Source: a virus
Virus record (IMG/VR): IMGVR_UViG_3300030102_006128
Coordinates: 1 to 20,888 of that record
Strand: one strand, 5' to 3'
DNA: 20,888 nucleotides
Of this stretch, positions 1 through 17,405 are shown piece by piece. The translations under genes were made by a program, and so were the position numbers. Every line of letters starts with the position of its first letter. Position 1 is the first letter of the stretch. The notes under the pieces were generated by a model, which was given only the letters and a program-made list of their open reading frames with translations, was not told where the DNA came from and did no database searches.

Positions 1-595
1 TGTTTCCACGAGTATTAGCATTTTGGAAAAGATTTAGTGTAGTCAAATCTTTCTCTGCAAATGGATCAATAATCATGTTCATGTTGTCAGATACAAACTT
101 ACGAGCAGCCATGATTCTTCGTGCCTCTGCAAGGTCGTTTGTGTCCATAACAGTAGAGTCTGTGTTGTTGTCAGCAAATGCTGCTTCAAACCCTTTACGA
201 GCCTCAGTCTTTACATCAGCGTTGATTTGGTCAATTAGTTGATGTAGCCTCGGTACAAAGTGTTGTTGTACTAAGTCAGGAAGTGCAAATTTTTGGTCAG
301 CCTTGTCGATGCTGAAGCCACTGAAGAAGTGCTTGTTAATTACTAACTGCTCTTCACTAGCATTAGGTGTGCCTAGAGAATAGCTACCAGTATATGCAGT
401 AGGTGCGCCTGTTGGCTTTACTGCACGAGTTATGCTTACAGTCTTGTTACGTGCTGCTACTAGACCTTCGATTGATGCGCCAGCTACGTTAGTAACAGCA
501 CTAGATACCATTGGTCGGTTTGGATATTGGTTAGCTAATGCTACCTCAACAAATGCCTCTGGCTCATAAATATTAAAGTTGGTATTAATTGCCAT
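1..595 (-). CDS. Major capsid protein, N-terminal part (runs off the window)
   Basis: The frame opens with ATG at 595 (MAINTNFNIYEPEAFVEVAL) and stays open to the window edge, giving about 198 residues with the C-terminus missing. Position argues for the coat protein: it is next after portal and scaffold in the same direction, the standard order of a phage head operon. The text fits the P22/HK97-fold coat family: a long helical stretch near residues 110-150, then a region around 160-185 resembling the 'arrimaarkfvsdn.n.iidp' part of such proteins. No SD sequence is visible; the leader is A/T-rich. A possible promoter and a hairpin lie in the roughly 100-bp gap upstream, which would allow extra capsid transcription. 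Capsid identity is inferred mainly from context. Confidence 0.8.
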   Translation of the reverse strand, partial: MAINTNFNIYEPEAFVEVALANQYPNRPMVSSAVTNVAGASIEGLVAARNKTVSITRAVKPTGAPTAYTGSYSLGTPNASEEQLVINKHFFSGFSIDKADQKFALPDLVQQHFVPRLHQLIDQINADVKTEARKGFEAAFADNNTDSTVMDTNDLAEARRIMAARKFVSDNMNMIIDPFAEKDLTTLNLFQNANTRGN

Positions 596-4275: not shown

Positions 4276-4662
4276 ATGTCAGAAAACGTACCATCCAATC
4301 CAAGACTATACAGCAGAGTAAAATCTGATGCTAAACGTAAGTTTAAAATATTTCCTAGTGCATACGCATCAGCCTATATCGTTAGAGAATATAAAAAAAG
4401 AGGCGGAACATACACAGGAAGAAAGAGCAAAAGAAAAGGCATCGCTCGATGGATGCGTGAAAAATGGACTACTCAAGATGGCTCTCCTTGTGGGTCAAAG
4501 AAGTTCAAGGGTGTAAAAAAGTGTCGGCCTACTGTTCGTATTAGCAAACAAACACCTGTTACATGGCAAGAACTCAAGGCAAAACGCAAGGCAACTGAGG
4601 CTGTGAGAGAAAAACAGCGTGTAGGAATGGGTAAACGTGCCAAAGCCATTAGGAGAGACTAG
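4276..4662 (+). CDS. Small basic protein in reverse orientation inside the packaging operon
   Basis: A 128-residue protein (MSENVPSNPRLYSR...), about a third Lys/Arg. The core KSDAKRKFKIFPSAYASAYI, then VREYKKRGGTY, resembles a widespread small viral family ('AK.KF.V.PSAYAN....Y...GG'; possibly DUF5872) of unknown function. Two cysteines lie in GSPCGSKKFKGVKKCRP. The ATG at 4276 is preferred to the TTG six bases earlier. It is the only rightward gene between 1 and 12434 and converges on the terminase nuclease gene with a 4-bp stop overlap, so its transcript is antisense to the leftward operon unless timed differently. Confidence 0.7.
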   Translation: MSENVPSNPRLYSRVKSDAKRKFKIFPSAYASAYIVREYKKRGGTYTGRKSKRKGIARWMREKWTTQDGSPCGSKKFKGVKKCRPTVRISKQTPVTWQELKAKRKATEAVREKQRVGMGKRAKAIRRD

Positions 4663-5444
4663 CGCAACACATACATTGGAGTTGAAGAAGTCTTTTCATT
4701 ACGCCAAATAGCATAATCTGTCGCATCGCTCATGTGCCCACGATCTCCATTGTCTATTTTTATGCCTTTGTCATTCACAATGGAGTACATATAGTCTTTT
4801 ATGGTGTGCTCGCATCTAGTATTTATCAAAAGTCGTCTCTCACCATTGATTCCAGCATAAATTACGTTGTTTATCTTATCTACACGCACTTTTCTTCGTG
4901 GATTTTGAATGTCTAACTCATTTTTATACGAAATTTGATTCTGATCGAAAATTTCTCGCACATAATCCCAGTCATTTTTGCCTACACGACCATAATTACC
5001 ACTTTTTTGGTTAGAAGTATTGTCCCCAGCCAATAAAACCTTTGAAACACCCCATTTATTCAATAATTCAACAGCTTTGAGGGCTTGCTCGGTAGTAAGT
5101 GCCTCCTTTGAGAATAATTCATCAAAGACCAAGTATTGTTTAAGTCCATTTCTGGCTTTTTTGACCTGTAATAAAGCCCAACAATGTGGGCTACGATTAA
5201 AATCAGCACACAGCCAAGTAGGAAGGCTATTATCAAAGTCCATAGAAGTAATATTTCCATCTGGATATTGATTGTATCCATCAAAGTGCTTATAAGCCTT
5301 CTTGGTTGGGTCATCTGTTTCCTCACTCATTTCGTATCCAAGTTTGTACGATAGAAAATCCATCGCTTCTTCTTGGAGCAATCTTTGTTTACTATGATTT
5401 GTTTCCCAAAGAGGTATTTCCCATACTTTATCTGGCTGTCTCAT
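4659..5444 (-). CDS. Large terminase, nuclease domain (separate ORF)
   Basis: A 261-residue protein with the RNase H-like fold of terminase nuclease domains. The three acidic metal ligands are recognisable: D81 in TWLCADFNRSPHCW, D141 in VLLAGDNTSN and D240 (or D243) in GHMSDATDYAIW. It begins in the inter-domain linker (VWEIPLWETNHSKQRL) and has no ATPase motifs; those are in the ORF at 5766-6569. It cuts concatemeric DNA during packaging. Its ATG at 5444 lies inside the previous ORF (17-nt overlap), suggesting coupled translation. It is in the same reading frame as the ATPase ORF, although a third ORF in another frame separates them. No sign of decay is seen. Confidence 0.85.
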   Translation of the reverse strand: MRQPDKVWEIPLWETNHSKQRLLQEEAMDFLSYKLGYEMSEETDDPTKKAYKHFDGYNQYPDGNITSMDFDNSLPTWLCADFNRSPHCWALLQVKKARNGLKQYLVFDELFSKEALTTEQALKAVELLNKWGVSKVLLAGDNTSNQKSGNYGRVGKNDWDYVREIFDQNQISYKNELDIQNPRRKVRVDKINNVIYAGINGERRLLINTRCEHTIKDYMYSIVNDKGIKIDNGDRGHMSDATDYAIWRNEKTSSTPMYVLR

Positions 5445-5784
5445 AATCTCGTATTGACTGAAGGGCGCTTTTTGGGTCTACAAAAAATATAGCCACATGA
5501 TCATCAGCCGCATCCTCTATTATTGATAAAGCACCAGATACATAATGATGAACAGTTTTAAGGTCATAGCTTAGTATGTTCCATCCATATCTCATACATT
5601 CATCTATAACATAATCTAATATGCCTGACTCTGATTCTTTAGGTAATATTTCCCAATGCTGTTTCATCACCTTTGCCTCTATCATACTAGAAAACAATTT
5701 TATTTCTTTTTTGATACGATTTACTTCATTTTGATCTGTATCTACAGAAAGCCTTATGTATGTTACTATTTCAGGTTTTTCCAT
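5428..5784 (-). CDS. Unknown 118-aa ORF between the two terminase halves
   Basis: Starts MEKPEIVTYIRLSVDTDQNE. It is mixed alpha/beta in appearance: a beta-like start, a Lys/Glu helix, a central IDECMRYGWNILSYDL segment, and a C-terminal VAIFFVDPKSALQSIRDYE. I do not recognise the family. It overlaps the ATPase ORF by 19 nt and the nuclease ORF by 17 nt, so the three are packed as one translational unit. It is read one base back (-1) from the frame shared by both terminase halves. It could be a terminase-associated protein, an inserted domain, or part of a frameshifted polyprotein. Confidence 0.65.
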   Translation of the reverse strand: MEKPEIVTYIRLSVDTDQNEVNRIKKEIKLFSSMIEAKVMKQHWEILPKESESGILDYVIDECMRYGWNILSYDLKTVHHYVSGALSIIEDAADDHVAIFFVDPKSALQSIRDYETAR

Positions 5785-6569
5785 TCTTCTACTTTATACC
5801 CAGTTTTATCTTCTTTTACAGAAATCTGAAGAACATTGAATATTCCAGACTTCATTAGTCTGCTATTAGCGTCATTAGGATGATAGGGAGTACACACGCT
5901 CAAAACAATACCTTTATCGTGAACACGCTTGATCCATGTGTTAGATACCTTGTTCCATACTGTATCTCTACGTGCAGTGGATATTCTATCCTCGTCATTG
6001 CATACATCATCAAGAATCAATACGCCTGCTCGCTGACCTGTAGTTTGAGTCAGCACTGCATAAGCCTCATAAGTAGGGTTGCCTGTTCTGTTGCGACTCT
6101 TTACTATTATTCTTTGAGTTGATCCAGTATCAGTCTTATCAAACTCAACAGCATTAAAATTATTCTCTTTGCACCAGTACCTATACATATCACTCATAAA
6201 TAATGCCCTCAAAGACAATATTCTTTTAGCAGAGATACCACCATCAGCAGACACAATCAAAGTCTCAAGTTCGTGTTTTCTCGTGGTCATATATGCTGAT
6301 AGACCAATGGCTACTTGTTGCGACTTACCAGTATTATAGGGTGCACGAATCAAGCCATTCAGACGAGCGTTATTAGACAACGATTCCTGCTCCCAGTCAT
6401 AAATTCCCTGCTGCATAGCTAGGTGTATATCTGCCTGCGTAAGTTTTCTGCCATCTTGATCTGCCAAACAATTTTCAATAAAAGAGTTTCGTAAATCAAT
6501 AGAATCTGGTGGTGGTTCATGCCCAACAATATTGACAAGTAAATCAGACCAATTAGCTTTTTGACTCAT
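5766..6569 (-). CDS. Large terminase, ATPase domain (separate ORF)
   Basis: A 267-residue protein with the ASCE ATPase signature of large terminases: Walker A RAPYNTGKS near residues 75-83, Walker B GVLILDDVCNDED near 182-194 with the catalytic acid after the aspartates, and a coupling-motif-like SVCTPYH near 224-230. It stops right after the ATPase core (KVEEWKNLK). The nuclease half is encoded separately at 4659-5444. The ATG at 6569 is chosen because AAGAGGAAGC just before it is a good SD; a longer frame to 6614 runs into an upstream small gene. It powers DNA translocation through the portal. The split of ATPase and nuclease is unusual. Confidence 0.88.
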   Translation of the reverse strand: MSQKANWSDLLVNIVGHEPPPDSIDLRNSFIENCLADQDGRKLTQADIHLAMQQGIYDWEQESLSNNARLNGLIRAPYNTGKSQQVAIGLSAYMTTRKHELETLIVSADGGISAKRILSLRALFMSDMYRYWCKENNFNAVEFDKTDTGSTQRIIVKSRNRTGNPTYEAYAVLTQTTGQRAGVLILDDVCNDEDRISTARRDTVWNKVSNTWIKRVHDKGIVLSVCTPYHPNDANSRLMKSGIFNVLQISVKEDKTGYKVEEWKNLK

Positions 6570-6696
6570 GCTTCCTCTTGCGTTTTTTCTTGCGATGAGC
6601 AACAGTATCAACACGCTTAAATATTCTCGCTTTATTCTTGAATCTTACAAATTGAGTAAAAAAGTTTGTTTTAAAGATAGGGAACCTAAACCTCAT
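6553..6696 (-). CDS. Small 47-aa highly basic protein
   Basis: Reads MRFRFPIFKTNFFTQFVRFK, then NKARIFKRVDTVAHRKKKRK, ending RKHESKS. It fills the space between the nuclease gene and the terminase ATPase gene: its ATG overlaps the upstream stop by 11 nt and its own end overlaps the terminase start by 17 nt, typical of coupled genes. The C-terminal RKKKRKRKH stretch suggests nucleic-acid binding. No family is recognised. The alternative is that this is only the terminase leader, but the open frame, the composition and the tight junctions favour a gene. Confidence 0.55.
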   Translation of the reverse strand: MRFRFPIFKTNFFTQFVRFKNKARIFKRVDTVAHRKKKRKRKHESKS

Positions 6697-9593: not shown

Positions 9594-9618
9594 GAATCAG
9601 GTTCAGGTCGTATCTGCT

Positions 9619-9741
9619 ATGGGTGGAAATCCCTTTAGGATGGGTAGAAATCTCTCTACGATGGGTGGAAATCCCCAGCGCAAAAAAAAAGGACTCCTAC
9701 CTATCATGGGTAGAAATCCTTTTGAAATGGGTAGAAATCCC
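9619..9741 (+). repeat. Array of five ATGGGTRGAAATCYC direct repeats (iteron-like)
   Basis: Copies begin at 9619, 9640, 9661, 9706 and 9727. Distances are 21, 21, 45 and 21 bp, so neighbours lie two helical turns apart with one position skipped. The unit is ATGGGTRGAAATCYC, an imperfect dyad GGG-N7-CCC. The last copy ends at 9741, touching the stop codon (9743) of the putative HTH gene on the minus strand. The same motif recurs at 11797-11922. Phasing and position suggest binding sites for a protein such as an initiator or repressor. Confidence 0.85.
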
Positions 9742-9742
9742 T

Positions 9743-10117
9743 TTAATAGTGCCAGCAGGCATAGTCCCATATACCTCTATAGTAGCACCACTCCAGATAT
9801 TCTTGGTCTGATATATGAGGGTCGCTATAGTCAAGACTTCGTAACCAGTCTATAAGGTCTTTCTCATGTGCGAAACACTGTCCAAACTTTGTCTCAAAAC
9901 CTTGAGTCATTCTCTGTCCAGTCTTGCTGCATACTCTAGTATGAGTATCCATGTACTCTTTAAGTCGTCTATATTCTGAAGCCCACGTTCTGTCCATGAA
10001 GTCCTCATCAGGAAACGTCTTCATATATGACAACCTATTTTCCTTGATTCCAGTATCTTCTGAGATTTGCTTCTGTGAGAAGTCGTGGTCATCCTTTAAC
10101 ATACGAACTATGTTCAT
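9743..10117 (-). CDS. Putative HTH DNA-binding protein, last gene of six-gene operon
   Basis: A 124-residue protein. Residues about 13-34 (FSQKQISEDTGIKENRLSYM) look like a lambda Cro/CI-type helix-turn-helix; the rest is acidic and aromatic, with a Cys/Trp/Tyr-rich end (YLEWCYYRGIWDYACWHY). Two cysteines lie at the C-terminus. The ATG at 10117 overlaps the previous stop as ATGA and has a GGGGGG leader; an upstream ATG at 10129 would overlap more. The direct-repeat array starts two bases after its stop, so those repeats are a natural candidate for its binding site. It is not assigned to a named family. Confidence 0.6.
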   Translation of the reverse strand: MNIVRMLKDDHDFSQKQISEDTGIKENRLSYMKTFPDEDFMDRTWASEYRRLKEYMDTHTRVCSKTGQRMTQGFETKFGQCFAHEKDLIDWLRSLDYSDPHISDQEYLEWCYYRGIWDYACWHY

Positions 10118-11752: not shown

Positions 11753-11796
11753 ATATTCAGATACAAATAATCAGATTAAATGAAATTACTTTTGGA

Positions 11797-11922
11797 ATGG
11801 GTAAAAATCCCCAAAGTGGGGAACTAAAATCGTAACTGAGATGGGTGGAAATCCCCCTGAGATATGGGTAAAAATTCACTATGGGAATGGGTAAAAATCC
11901 TTTTGATATGGGTGAAAATCTC
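11797..11922 (+). repeat. Array of five ATGGGTRRAAATYCC direct repeats (iteron-like)
   Basis: Copies begin at 11797, 11841, 11864, 11887 and 11908, spaced 44, 23, 23 and 21 bp. In the 44-bp gap a decayed copy is visible near 11818 (GGGGAACTAAAATC). The array ends at 11922, immediately next to the stop codon (11923) of the initiator-like gene. Motif, orientation, copy number and the single double-length gap all match the array at 9619-9741. The neighbourhood of a replication-initiator-like gene makes an iteron role plausible. Confidence 0.85.
11803..11822 (-). terminator. Weak intrinsic terminator after the initiator-like gene
   Basis: On the minus strand TCCCC-ACTTT-GGGGA is followed by TTTTT, a 5-bp stem with a T-run, about 100 bases after the initiator-like gene's stop and before the promoter of the next operon. 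The stem uses part of one direct repeat (11797-11812). It is short, so efficiency is uncertain. Confidence 0.45.
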
Positions 11923-12354
11923 TCACATGATCTCACCTAAAACGATTTCCCTCCCCCTTCTTAAAGAAGAAACAGTATTATTATTATTTATATTAATATG
12001 TTTGACATTTCGATCAAGGGGGTCTTGACGCAAATCGCTAGGGTTCTTGCGTTTTCGATCAAGGGTTCTTGCGTTTTCAGTCAAGGGGTATATCTTTCTC
12101 TTTTGATTTCCATTCTCATCAATAGGATGATACTCTACTCTTACAAATCCAGCCTTCTTTAATGACTTGATCCACCTAGATATGGTTTCTGTCCTTGTAT
12201 TATATAGATGTGCAAAATAGGAATTAGTACTAAAACAGTATCCATGCTTACTAGATAGGGTTATAATTTCAGCGTACAGTATTTTTTCATTAGCGGTAAT
12301 CTTTTCACTGTACCTTACATCCGCACTTAGTATTACGTAGTAATTAGGTTTCAT
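11923..12354 (-). CDS. Replication-initiator-like winged-helix protein (HTH_36 type)
   Basis: A 143-residue protein starting MKPNYYVILSADVRYSEKIT. Residues about 5-91 form a winged helix typical of phage and plasmid replication initiators: ITANEKILYAEIITLSSKHG, the recognition region NSYFAHLYNTRTETISRWIK, then a wing VRVEYHPIDENGNQKRKIYP. The C-terminal tail (from 92) is basic, then Asn-rich (HININNNNTVSS). An upstream ATG at 12420 is open but the protein then starts with atypical sequence and would cross the promoter, so 12354 is chosen. The coding DNA contains short tandem repeats and an AT-rich run. A strong promoter lies upstream, and the gene diverges from the replication operon. A pure transcription regulator is the alternative. 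Confidence 0.7.
   Translation of the reverse strand: MKPNYYVILSADVRYSEKITANEKILYAEIITLSSKHGYCFSTNSYFAHLYNTRTETISRWIKSLKKAGFVRVEYHPIDENGNQKRKIYPLTENARTLDRKRKNPSDLRQDPLDRNVKHININNNNTVSSLRRGREIVLGEIM
11975..12090. other. Candidate replication origin inside the initiator-like gene
   Basis: Two near-identical tandem units of 22 bp (core AGGGTTCTTGCGTTTTC, then GATCA or AGTCA) lie at 12040-12061 and 12062-12083, with a third, diverged unit before them (about 12018-12039) and a partial one after. Next to them is an almost pure A/T stretch at 11975-12000. Repeats plus AT-rich DNA inside an initiator gene is the arrangement of phage lambda ori in gene O. Protein residues 93-118 and 119-128 are encoded by the two parts. 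Function is inferred. Confidence 0.5.
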
Positions 12355-12365
12355 TATTTTTCTCT

Positions 12366-12393
12366 TTGTGTATTGTAATATTTTTTGTAATAT
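12366..12393 (+). promoter_or_regulatory. Rightward promoter candidate for the replication operon
   Basis: TTGTGT (12366-12371), 16 bp, TAATAT (12388-12393) precede the exonuclease ATG at 12435, which has GGAG as SD. The -10 box overlaps that of the leftward promoter on the other strand, so the two may compete. Confidence 0.5.
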
Positions 12394-12417
12394 AGGGCAT
12401 ACTAAGTTAATAAACAA
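12389..12417 (-). promoter_or_regulatory. Leftward promoter candidate for the initiator-like gene
   Basis: On the minus strand TTGTTT (12417-12412), 17 bp, TATATT (12394-12389) is a good sigma-70-like promoter, 35 bases before the ATG at 12354. It shares the TATATT box with the promoter candidates at 9493 and 11724. Confidence 0.55.
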
Positions 12418-12434
12418 CATAATGGAGTACTAAG

Positions 12435-14218: not shown

Positions 14219-14438
14219 GAATGAACTTGCAATATTGAAACTATTAAATGAGAACAAAAAAGCCACCTATGCTGAAATAGAACCTAAGATGGAACTGGAA
14301 AACCACGATAAATATTGGACTACATTTTCTACGATATGTAGTTTAATATCTTCAGGTGTAATCGTTTCTAATAACAAATATCCATCTGATTATTCTTTAA
14401 CATCGTATGGAAAGGTTAAGGTAAAAGAACTGTTATGA
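14211..14438 (+). CDS. Small winged-helix-like protein
   Basis: A 75-residue protein (MTKNELAILKLLNENKKATY...). It reads as a compact winged helix: helix 1 NELAILKLLNEN, helix 2 YAEIEPKME, recognition helix TFSTICSLISSG, and a wing SNNKYPSDYSLTSYGK. The start ATG at 14211 overlaps the previous stop; an ATG at 14199 adds four residues (MRRK) and is possible. The stop overlaps the helicase ATG as ATGA. It may regulate the operon or assist loading of the helicase; neither is shown. Confidence 0.65.
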   Translation: MTKNELAILKLLNENKKATYAEIEPKMELENHDKYWTTFSTICSLISSGVIVSNNKYPSDYSLTSYGKVKVKELL

Positions 14439-15685
14439 AGCGTAATGACATGATGCACTTGGAGGAAGTGCTGATTGGTACGCTAATATCTTATAGAGAA
14501 TTTAGAGACCTTATATTCAATACGTTAGATGCTACCTATTTTCACTACCTTCGACCTGTATATTTAGAGGCTTGCAGACAGCATGCAGAGGGAACAGTAT
14601 TCAATGAAGATACTCTGGCTGCTAAAATAGAGGGCATGAACATTGATGAGTTTTATGCACTCATGATGATGCACGTTGCATCTGAAGATGAGACTAGAGC
14701 ATATCTAAAAACTCTGAAAGATACTACTGATAAGAACAGATTAAGATATTCGCTAAAGCATGTCAGTGATGTAGCTAATAGTCCAACCACTACAATGGAC
14801 GATCTATTAGTAGAAATTGATAAACTCAATCAGACAGTAGATGACGCATCGCAAAAAATCGCTTTGACTCCATCTGAAATATTAGAGCGTGAAATGAATG
14901 AGCCTAAAAAAGAGAAGCTGATCACTGGTGTGCATAAATTAGATGATGGTCTACATAAAGATGTTGGACTCCATAGAGGTGATATAAATATTGTTTTAGC
15001 TGACTCTGGTCATGGTAAGACTCAATGGGCAACTTTTTTAGCAAGTAAACTTGCTCAACAAGGCTATCAAGGTCTGTGGTTTCAGATGGAAGACTATGAT
15101 GTCAATACTGCTAAACAGCTTGGCTTGATGGTTGGATACGAAGCTGATAACGTAAGGATCATTGATTCTGTAGATGATATAGACGAGATCAAACGTATGT
15201 GCAGGCTAAACAAAATGGATTATGGTCTTGACTTTGTAGTCATAGATTATATTCAAGAAGTATATGCTCAAGGCAGGTTTGATAGCAGGACGCTAGAAAT
15301 TCAATATGTAACTAAGGTTATGAAGGATATTGCTAAACAGCTCAATGTGTTGGTAATCGTTCCTAGTCAAGTTACTATAAACTCATTAAATAGGTCTGGT
15401 TGGAGCTTAACTCCAAAGTATAAAGACGCACAATGGGCACAGGCTATAAAGAACGTAGCTCATTGTATGACATCAGTGTTTAGACCAAACATGGTTCAGT
15501 CTTTAGTAACCACAGATCACGAAGGATACTTAGCTGTAAAAGGCAGAAAAGATGGTGAAATTTTTGACTATCAATCAGTCTTTGTAAAGCTAGTAAAAAC
15601 AAGAAGAGGCCAACTTTCTCACAATTTTATGCACATGATCCATAATGGAGACATGGGACTTGAAGTTGCTAAATCAAAGATTTGA
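14435..15685 (+). CDS. DnaB-type replicative helicase
   Basis: A 416-residue protein with the two-part structure of DnaB-family helicases: an N-terminal helical domain (LEEVLIGTLISYREFRDLIF, residues about 9-100), a linker, and a RecA-like domain. In it, GLHRGDINIVLADSGHGKTQ holds Walker A (ADSGHGKT, 189-196), LWFQMEDYD has the catalytic Glu (219), DFVVIDYIQEV has Walker B (about 266-271) with the DnaB-like 'DYIQ', and VLVIVPSQV matches motif H3. It unwinds DNA at the phage fork. It follows a small winged-helix gene with an ATGA overlap. No primase gene is seen in the window. Confidence 0.88.
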   Translation: MKRNDMMHLEEVLIGTLISYREFRDLIFNTLDATYFHYLRPVYLEACRQHAEGTVFNEDTLAAKIEGMNIDEFYALMMMHVASEDETRAYLKTLKDTTDKNRLRYSLKHVSDVANSPTTTMDDLLVEIDKLNQTVDDASQKIALTPSEILEREMNEPKKEKLITGVHKLDDGLHKDVGLHRGDINIVLADSGHGKTQWATFLASKLAQQGYQGLWFQMEDYDVNTAKQLGLMVGYEADNVRIIDSVDDIDEIKRMCRLNKMDYGLDFVVIDYIQEVYAQGRFDSRTLEIQYVTKVMKDIAKQLNVLVIVPSQVTINSLNRSGWSLTPKYKDAQWAQAIKNVAHCMTSVFRPNMVQSLVTTDHEGYLAVKGRKDGEIFDYQSVFVKLVKTRRGQLSHNFMHMIHNGDMGLEVAKSKI

Positions 15686-16620: not shown

Positions 16621-16730
16621 AGACAGTCATCGTAGATAATCGAACTGATCCTAACATGAAAGTAAGAACAGTAAAGCCAATAATAATATCAAAGATTGAT
16701 AATACTGATAAAAAAAGTAAGTATCATTGA
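16593..16730 (+). CDS. Small 45-aa basic protein
   Basis: Reads MAIQRRKKIKTVIVDNRTDP, then NMKVRTVKPIIISKIDNTDK, ending KSKYH. GAGGA seven bases before the ATG is a good SD, although it lies within the end of the endolysin gene (28-nt overlap). Composition is basic with beta-like hydrophobic runs (TVIVD, KPIIISKI). No family is recognised. It ends 56 bases before a terminator hairpin. Confidence 0.5.
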   Translation: MAIQRRKKIKTVIVDNRTDPNMKVRTVKPIIISKIDNTDKKSKYH

Positions 16731-16786
16731 ATCTTTATTGATAATTGTATAGATTAGATTATTCACATTTTACAATGCGAGCATCA

Positions 16787-16827
16787 ACCCCCCAGTGCCG
16801 TAAAATGTATTTTTGGGGGGTATTTTT
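16787..16827 (+). terminator. Intrinsic terminator after the endolysin unit
   Basis: ACCCCCCA (16787-16794) pairs with TGGGGGGT (16814-16821), enclosing an inner AAAAT/ATTTT pairing, and is followed by ATTTTTT. The long loop is unusual, but the C6/G6 stem plus T-run in AT-rich DNA is a convincing terminator between the small basic gene and the DnaA-like gene. Confidence 0.7.
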
Positions 16828-16851
16828 TACTAAGAAATAACTAGATCAAAA

Positions 16852-17196
16852 ATGATAGCAGAATATATTGTAAACGAAGTCTGCGATAGATTTCAGATAA
16901 CAAAAAAAGAACTAAGAAGTAGAAAAAGATATAAGCATTTAGTAGATGCAAGGCAGGCTTGCGCTTTTGCTTTAAGAAATCTGGATTGCACCTATAAATT
17001 TATAGGAGATGTAATAAATCGTGAGAGTCATACAACTATTATCCATATTTTAAAGAAAAGACACGATAATTCGCACGAGAATCAACGTATAGCTCATAGA
17101 ATAATAAAAGAATATAAGAGCATGGCATTGCCTAAGATCAGGCGGCAGAAGCTAAATATGGAAGAGTTTTTAGAGATGGTTCAACAAATTAACTAA
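16852..17196 (+). CDS. Stand-alone DnaA domain IV-like DNA-binding protein
   Basis: A 114-residue protein matching only the C-terminal DNA-binding domain of DnaA. It opens with a helix IVNEVCDRFQITKKELRSRK, continues VDARQACAFALRNLDCTYKF, then IGDVINRESHTTIIHILKKR (about 51-70), which corresponds to the DnaA signature 'GRDHTTV..A..K'. There is no AAA+ ATPase domain. A lone domain IV could bind host DnaA boxes and compete with DnaA, or direct phage replication or transcription to such sites. It has its own unit after a terminator; the leader is A-rich. Function beyond DnaA-box-like binding is inferred. Confidence 0.8.
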   Translation: MIAEYIVNEVCDRFQITKKELRSRKRYKHLVDARQACAFALRNLDCTYKFIGDVINRESHTTIIHILKKRHDNSHENQRIAHRIIKEYKSMALPKIRRQKLNMEEFLEMVQQIN

Positions 17197-17201
17197 ATAT
17201 C

Positions 17202-17405
17202 ATGGAACTTATAAGCGTTTTACTATTTTCGTCAACAATGAGCTTTATCGGCTTTGTTTTTGGCCTATCCAAAAATATAAAAGAATCAGAAAAAGAGATT
17301 TCTGACTCATTTAGAAAAGGATACATAGATGGATATATGGACGCAGTAAGAAGAAAGGGGGATGATCCTTATTATAAAGACTTCCCAAAGATGGGAATAA
17401 ACTAA
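17202..17405 (+). CDS. Small single-pass membrane protein
   Basis: A 67-residue protein with one hydrophobic N-terminal segment (about residues 2-24, ELISVLLFSSTMSFIGFVFG) followed by a charged tail (SEKEISDSFRKGYIDGYMDA, then VRRKGDDPYYKDF). Orientation is probably N-out with a cytoplasmic tail. It follows the DnaA-like gene by five bases. Similar short phage membrane proteins are common but unnamed. The stop overlaps the convergent gene on the other strand by a few bases, and no terminator separates them. Confidence 0.65.
   Translation: MELISVLLFSSTMSFIGFVFGLSKNIKESEKEISDSFRKGYIDGYMDAVRRKGDDPYYKDFPKMGIN

Follow-up and report, generated by a model that had tools for sequence, protein, structure and literature searches.

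In bacteria, domain IV of DnaA is by itself responsible for sequence-specific binding to double-stranded DNA, as described in the available part of PMC5835720. E. coli DnaA acts through a DnaA box to repress the promoters of its own gene (available parts of PMC5835720 and PMC8203912), and the latter source reports that full repression of dnaA requires ATP-DnaA together with additional ATP-DnaA boxes. A related domain is also known outside DnaA. REP-associated transposases carry a Bac_DnaA_C-like domain at the C-terminus and, in the part of PMC6006769 available, the consensus of most of their flanking repeats is unlike the DnaA box. Among the matches listed in open-access full text (subscription papers and bioRxiv preprints being outside the scope), there was no phage regulator that consists of a stand-alone DnaA domain IV.

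Here we analyze a phage protein of this architecture, DnaA4, which is encoded in IMG/VR record IMGVR_UViG_3300030102_006128. The stretch of DNA analyzed (positions 1–20,888 of that record) is referred to throughout as the window. Comparison of this locus with its relatives provides the stand-alone domain with a concrete candidate job and with candidate target sites.

A stand-alone DnaA domain IV protein

The only Pfam match of DnaA4 at E ≤ 0.01 is Bac_DnaA_C (PF08299), which covers residues 4–69 and scores 60.9 bits against a cut-off of 31.5. This domain occurs once across the whole 20,888-base record, in the DnaA4 ORF, and includes NRESHTTIIHI at residues 56–66. The AAA+ ATPase domain III is absent from this protein of 114 residues and a single Pfam domain. 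N-terminal domain I is absent too, the domain IV match beginning at residue 4, as is the HuH (Y1) transposase domain, Pfam yielding Bac_DnaA_C alone.

As a single sequence, DnaA4 had no match among solved structures, and a profile search was required to reach E. coli DnaA. The AlphaFold2 model, for which 37 homologs served as input, has a mean pLDDT of 87.6 and consists of five helices followed by a long helix (residues 74–113), whose confidence falls toward the end (block means 68–75). Foldseek ranked two DnaA domain IV–DNA complexes at the top, 3pvp from M. tuberculosis and 1j1v from E. coli, with a probability of 1.00. In VIA-align, the model could be superimposed on 1j1v_A, the E. coli domain IV on a DnaA box, with a Z-score of 11.5 and an rmsd of 2.2 over 87 residues, and the Z-score for 1l8q was 12.4. 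Six DnaA entries occupied the Z range of 9.6–12.4, while the following row of the ranking scored 5.3. By family, DnaA4 is almost certainly a DnaA domain IV protein.

A reading of this DNA made from the sequence alone (hereafter the sequence-only reading) had described a stand-alone domain IV with the above signature and no ATPase, in a phage with its own DnaB-type helicase and initiator-like gene. The Pfam score and the predicted fold bear out this description. The contrary outcome that it had named, a different fold, did not materialize, as the predicted model matches DnaA domain IV. Both the helicase and the initiator-like gene are real (Table 1).

Table 1. Features of the window that are relevant to DnaA4 and its putative operator
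Feature	Position	Strand	Remarks
Replication-initiator-like gene	11923..12420	-	HTH_36; phrog_19658 'replication initiation protein'
DnaB-type helicase	14435..15685	+	DnaB_C; phrog_19; anchor for finding the clade
Sigma70-like promoter TTGAAT-N17-TAGATT	16727..16755	+	Consensus match only; clade form TTGACT-N17-TAGATT
Perfect DnaA box TTATTCACA	16759..16767	+	Three bases past the -10 hexamer; candidate DnaA4 operator; position kept in relatives
ACATTTTAC, 5' strand of the pairing with the terminator loop	16765..16773	+	Overlaps the 3' end of the box
GCGAGCATCA, conserved leader stretch	16777..16786	+	
Terminator-like hairpin CCCCCC...GGGGGG + T run	16788..16828	+	Loop GTAAAATGT at 16800-16808, complementary to 16765-16773
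DnaA4, stand-alone DnaA domain IV protein	16852..17196	+	114 aa, ATG start
DnaA4 layout	residues 1 to ~90; 74-113		DnaA domain IV fold; long C-terminal helix, tail KLNMEEFLEMVQQIN
Small protein, 67 aa, hydrophobic N-terminus	17202..17405	+	Directly downstream of DnaA4; adjoins DnaA4 in relatives too

We aligned 37 of the 43 distinct DnaA4 proteins. Only three columns of the alignment, corresponding to R26, H60 and T62, are invariant. In the profile alignment, these residues match R399, H434 and T436 of E. coli DnaA (numbering counted manually on the 1j1v chain, which begins with residue 374), which we take to be positions contacting the DnaA box. The position of E. coli D433 is occupied by S59 in DnaA4 of the window and by Asp in most relatives. 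DnaA4 is likely to bind the DnaA box. At the C-terminus, 21 of the 37 proteins have the tail FLExVQ or FLExIQ when the alignment is read by eye, and the remainder end otherwise.

Relatives and gene neighborhood

Within IMG/VR, the DnaA4 protein alone retrieved four relatives. The DnaA4 alignment retrieved ten loci, including these four, and the DnaB helicase retrieved 67. A profile derived from the five closest DnaA4 sequences matched 58 ORFs in 75 records; once seven duplicates were removed, the DnaA4 gene was present in 51 loci. It lies 1.0–2.5 kb (3.8 kb in one case) downstream of the DnaB helicase gene. The gene order shared by eight loci, followed up to the contig ends, is exonuclease, small genes, helicase, a small protein, an M15 peptidase-like protein and one or more small genes. 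In the same loci, DnaA4, where it is on the contig, comes after the latter and is followed by a small membrane-like protein.

Seventeen records lack a DnaA4 match; 11 of them stop within 2.1 kb past the helicase, and in L074 the helicase match itself is weak. On the contig of L052 the gene is present further along (L102). No DnaA4 was found in L031, L033, L055 and L070 over a run of 2.5–3.3 kb. The gene is clearly absent from L029, where the leader is directly followed by the next gene. A Pfam search of 26 chosen records detected one Bac_DnaA_C domain in 23 and none in three. The same 26 records contained no integrase (PF00589), but they may be fragments, so a temperate life is still possible.

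We also searched 50,697 phage records. The helicase had only remote matches there (77 records, each below 60% identity). With DnaA4 as the tblastn query, three records were matched and set aside: all three encode full-length DnaA with several upstream DnaA boxes, and therefore resemble pieces of bacterial chromosomes. Of two divergent homologs used as tblastn queries, L060 gave four matches, two of them to records already matched by DnaA4, and L040 gave none in these phage records. In the search for a host, helicase patterns had no match in the genome collection; patterns from a seven-sequence helicase alignment matched 45 stretches, none of which was confirmed as a relative. Among the 37 aligned DnaA4 proteins, 19 matched phrog_16091 (unknown function) and seven matched phrog_4779 (transcriptional regulator), with weak scores in both cases (best E of 3.2e-6 and 1.3e-4, respectively).

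Elsewhere in the window, the terminase large subunit is represented by two ORFs on the minus strand (4659–5444 and 5766–6614), which match different terminase families and have a 118-aa ORF between them.

A DnaA box on the promoter of the gene

The sequence-only reading had pointed to a search of the genome for DnaA-box-like sites. The window as a whole revealed no excess of them. There are three perfect boxes (TTATNCACA) against 1.40 expected (sd 1.20), a number reached in 15 of 100 shuffles, and 54 matches to TTWTNCACA with one mismatch against 60.55 expected.

Of the 51 loci, 40 have a box no more than 250 nt away from the DnaA4 ATG. Among 17 representatives of upstream clusters, ten have a box, with 0.25 expected and a maximum of three in 1,000 shuffles; 175 of 8,274 background windows hold one. 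A k-mer count that made no use of the box also picked it up. The inverted box, TGTGGATAA, was present in eight of the 17 representatives (50 shuffles reached four) and ranked among the top 9-mers, alongside pieces of the leader.

For the promoter, we scanned the 65 loci that extend more than 900 nt past the helicase, allowing at most one mismatch to TTGACT-N17-TAGATT. The promoter was found downstream of the helicase in 54 of the 65 loci, and 49 of these 54 have a strict box on it. The 49 loci contain 51 boxes; as the loci are related, such counts do not represent independent events. Relative to the end of the -10 hexamer, 44 of the boxes are at offset -1 (25 inverted and 19 forward), one at 0 and four at +3, and two are within the spacer. 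In comparison, the same scan found TTGACT-N17-TATATT promoters at the helicase end in 50 of 66 loci, and none of these 50 has a DnaA box.

DnaA4 is on the contig in 43 of the 49 loci with promoter and strict box; the other six end earlier or are without the gene. In L039, L054 and L059, other small ORFs are inserted between the promoter-box and DnaA4. The five remaining promoter loci (L003, L005, L015, L029 and L072) have one-mismatch boxes on the promoter. In L058, L060, L061 and L062, which carry DnaA4, the TTGACT-N17-TAGATT promoter was not found; together with L003, L005, L015 and L072 they make up the eight DnaA4 loci that have no strict box at the promoter. In loci of the L034 type, a conserved gene extends into the promoter hexamers, whose conservation is therefore partly coding; the box sits after the stop codon of that gene.

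Two further arrangements were seen upstream of DnaA4. L039 (9207–9435) has two promoter + box cassettes in tandem, the first with an inverted and the second with a forward box. In L007, L013, L044 and L049 there is a recurrent repeat resembling TTTGCACAATAAAAACCCTTAAATCTGCACAAT, which in some of them runs into the ATG.

A second box site near the replication initiator

Most of the remaining boxes are found in one further region, beside the initiator gene and 2.7–4.4 kb upstream of the helicase. Among the 35 loci that cover this region, 31 (30 without the distant box of L002) have a box at a distance of up to 3 kb from the exonuclease gene, and the box is missing in the window, L003, L056 and L063. 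In several lineages, the second-site box is inverted and lies between the -35 and -10 hexamers of a leftward promoter, either TTGACA-N17-TAGATT or weaker forms. In other lineages, as read by eye, TTGTTT-N16-TATATT surrounds the box or a rightward TATAAAT just precedes it. The flanks thus vary between lineages, while the 9-mer box is retained.

Repeats resembling GGGTAAAAATCC / GGGTGGAAATCC are present in the window at 11790–11920, beside the initiator gene, and again at about 9600–9850; they also occur in L002. Near the initiator they occupy the place of the second DnaA box of the relatives. It is possible that they represent iterons or sites of another regulator.

DnaA4 as a candidate autoregulating repressor

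We are fairly confident that DnaA4 is an autoregulating repressor of the phage, whose operator would be a DnaA box of the host type. DnaA4, consisting of domain IV alone, would act as a phage transcription factor that binds single boxes on its own promoter and, in most relatives, also binds at a second operon, which adjoins the replication initiator. Once bound, it would cover the -10/start region or the -35/-10 spacer and, most likely, block RNA polymerase. The outcome would be negative autoregulation accompanied by the shut-off of the second operon. We interpret DnaA4 as an autorepressor because the edge of the -10 hexamer and the spacer are sites where a bound protein would exclude RNA polymerase. 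Autoregulation as such is probable. We infer binding, repression rather than activation, timing and any contact with host oriC. Regulation of phage genes was one of the roles proposed by the sequence-only reading, and the 51-locus comparison lends it support, given the perfect boxes on the gene's own promoter and the second site in most relatives. The parallel with the autorepression of dnaA is inexact, since a protein without an ATPase cannot copy the requirement for ATP-DnaA.

The operator corresponds to the bacterial consensus. Therefore, these promoters should be legible to host DnaA as well, and host boxes should be accessible to DnaA4. The former consideration leads to a different view, in which host DnaA is the reader and couples the timing of phage transcription to the cell cycle of the host, while DnaA4, as a competitor or anti-repressor, releases the promoters later. 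The commonest box, TTATCCACA, is indeed the bacterial consensus, and in phage lambda, DnaA-box-like sites close to the pO promoter are reportedly protected by host DnaA (available part of PMC3985674). Scans of 2.9 million viral contigs bear on this view in both directions. TTGACW-N17-TAGATT with a forward box was found in 20 stretches, 16 from the clade and four from elsewhere (L098–L101). With an inverted box, there were 30 stretches, 28 from the clade and two from elsewhere (L117 and L121). In the newly found contigs L104 and L109, DnaA4 is just downstream of the promoter and box. L098–L101 and L117, L121 represent two other phage groups, in which the promoter is directly followed by a perfect DnaA box and no DnaA4 match was found within the retrieved stretches. 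These six promoters may be under the control of host DnaA, or the combination may be due to chance. On the other hand, the combination of promoter and box is nearly confined to the DnaA4 clade (44 of 50 matches), which argues against host DnaA as the intended reader. In addition, L029, the sole clear case of gene loss, has a degraded box, TTATTTACA, yet one-mismatch boxes also occur in four loci with the gene. On balance, we consider it unlikely that the boxes primarily serve host DnaA.

The latter consideration, that DnaA4 may occupy host boxes, relates to the role favored by the sequence-only reading, namely, action against host replication. Occupying host boxes and blocking initiation is compatible with our data, given that the site DnaA4 is predicted to bind is the host consensus. 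An anti-host role is therefore possible, although less supported than phage gene regulation. That DnaA4 is mainly a weapon, sitting on the boxes of host oriC to block initiation, seems to us quite improbable. It has the same domain with conserved contact-aligned positions and, having no ATPase, would presumably bind DNA without opening it. However, a weapon would have no need for a box whose position on the phage's own promoter is fixed, and the host searches with the helicase in the genome collection confirmed no relative. Finally, DnaA4 lies near replication genes and the second box adjoins the initiator gene, but the boxes are single, set at fixed offsets from promoter hexamers in both orientations and not clustered, and DnaA4 is without the other DnaA domains, making it very improbable that the boxes belong to phage replication origins at which DnaA4 helps to load the phage helicase.

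Leader RNA between the box and the gene

In 30 loci, the DNA separating the box from the DnaA4 coding sequence shares GCGAGCAT-CCCCCC...GGGGGG followed by a T run. The leader motif was found in 30 stretches of the viral collection, of which 28 are on contigs already in our set and two are new (L083 and L086); in both new ones, DnaA4 adjoins the motif. L028-type loci have a different terminator, and those of the L034 type have none, their box being 38 nt from the ATG.

Base pairing between the end of the box and the loop of the terminator is present in every one of the 24 distinct leaders. The pairing involves ACATTTTAC and GTAAAATGT in the window, and CAGTCT and AGACTG in the larger leader class. 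In a first pairing test, which allowed G-U, the two leader classes were not separated in one direction (cross-class mean of 6.3 and maximum of 8 versus an own minimum of 6); in the other direction, cross-class pairing reached at most 4. In a second test, restricted to Watson–Crick pairs and to a 10-base segment at the box, own runs were 6–9, whereas cross runs were at most 3 and 4, and shuffled loops averaged 4.0 and 3.3. As the second test was selected only once the first had been run, we regard the pairing as support rather than proof. The leader of the window folds 2.5 sd better than its shuffles, with one of 200 shuffles being as good.

The leader pairing (window 16765–16828, L002 7877–7976 and other leaders) looks like a covarying H-type pseudoknot on the terminator. 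Such a pseudoknot-like stem would suggest an attenuator or a short RNA. As a point against the repressor reading, about 30 loci have a terminator-like hairpin between promoter and gene, so that control by the box may concern a short RNA. DnaA-dependent attenuation of his has been reported (available part of PMC10989985). Rfam searches produced nothing at the gathering score in four sources, the leader matches being sub-threshold only. Longer leaders have an additional hairpin, and both sides of its stem seem to vary.

Implications and comparison with known systems

A broader scheme can be envisaged, although we offer it tentatively and would not be surprised if it failed. The phage lineage may have made the DNA-reading end of DnaA its global repressor and the DnaA box its operator code. 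Host DnaA would read the promoters at entry and DnaA4 would read them later, tying transcription to the replication state of the host; DnaA4 would also compete at oriC, and the leader RNA would provide a second control. If the repressor model is true, the replication-initiation code of the cell serves a virus as operator, and phage and host are predicted to compete directly for DnaA boxes. Moreover, it would make domain IV available for study as a repressor that has no ATP switch.

How does DnaA4 relate to described systems? With domain IV of bacterial DnaA (PF08299; 1j1v, 3pvp) it shares the predicted fold, the helix-turn-helix with the HTT signature and the contact-aligned conserved positions. 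Unlike bacterial DnaA, it is phage-encoded, has an extra C-terminal helix and is without domains I–III, hence without an ATP switch. The promoter of the gene itself bears a DnaA box, which is also the case for autoregulated bacterial dnaA; in contrast to dnaA, DnaA4 usually has a single box, and it lies on the core promoter. REP-associated HuH transposases of subclass 2.1, as presented in the available part of PMC6006769, likewise have a DnaA domain IV-like part outside DnaA and in mobile DNA. There, however, the domain is fused to a transposase, whereas DnaA4 stands alone and most of its boxes are exact. With phage lambda (PMC3985674, in the part available), the shared feature is the presence of DnaA-box-like sites near a phage promoter. 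The difference is in the reader: in lambda it is host DnaA, whereas here a domain of the box-binding type is encoded by the phage itself.
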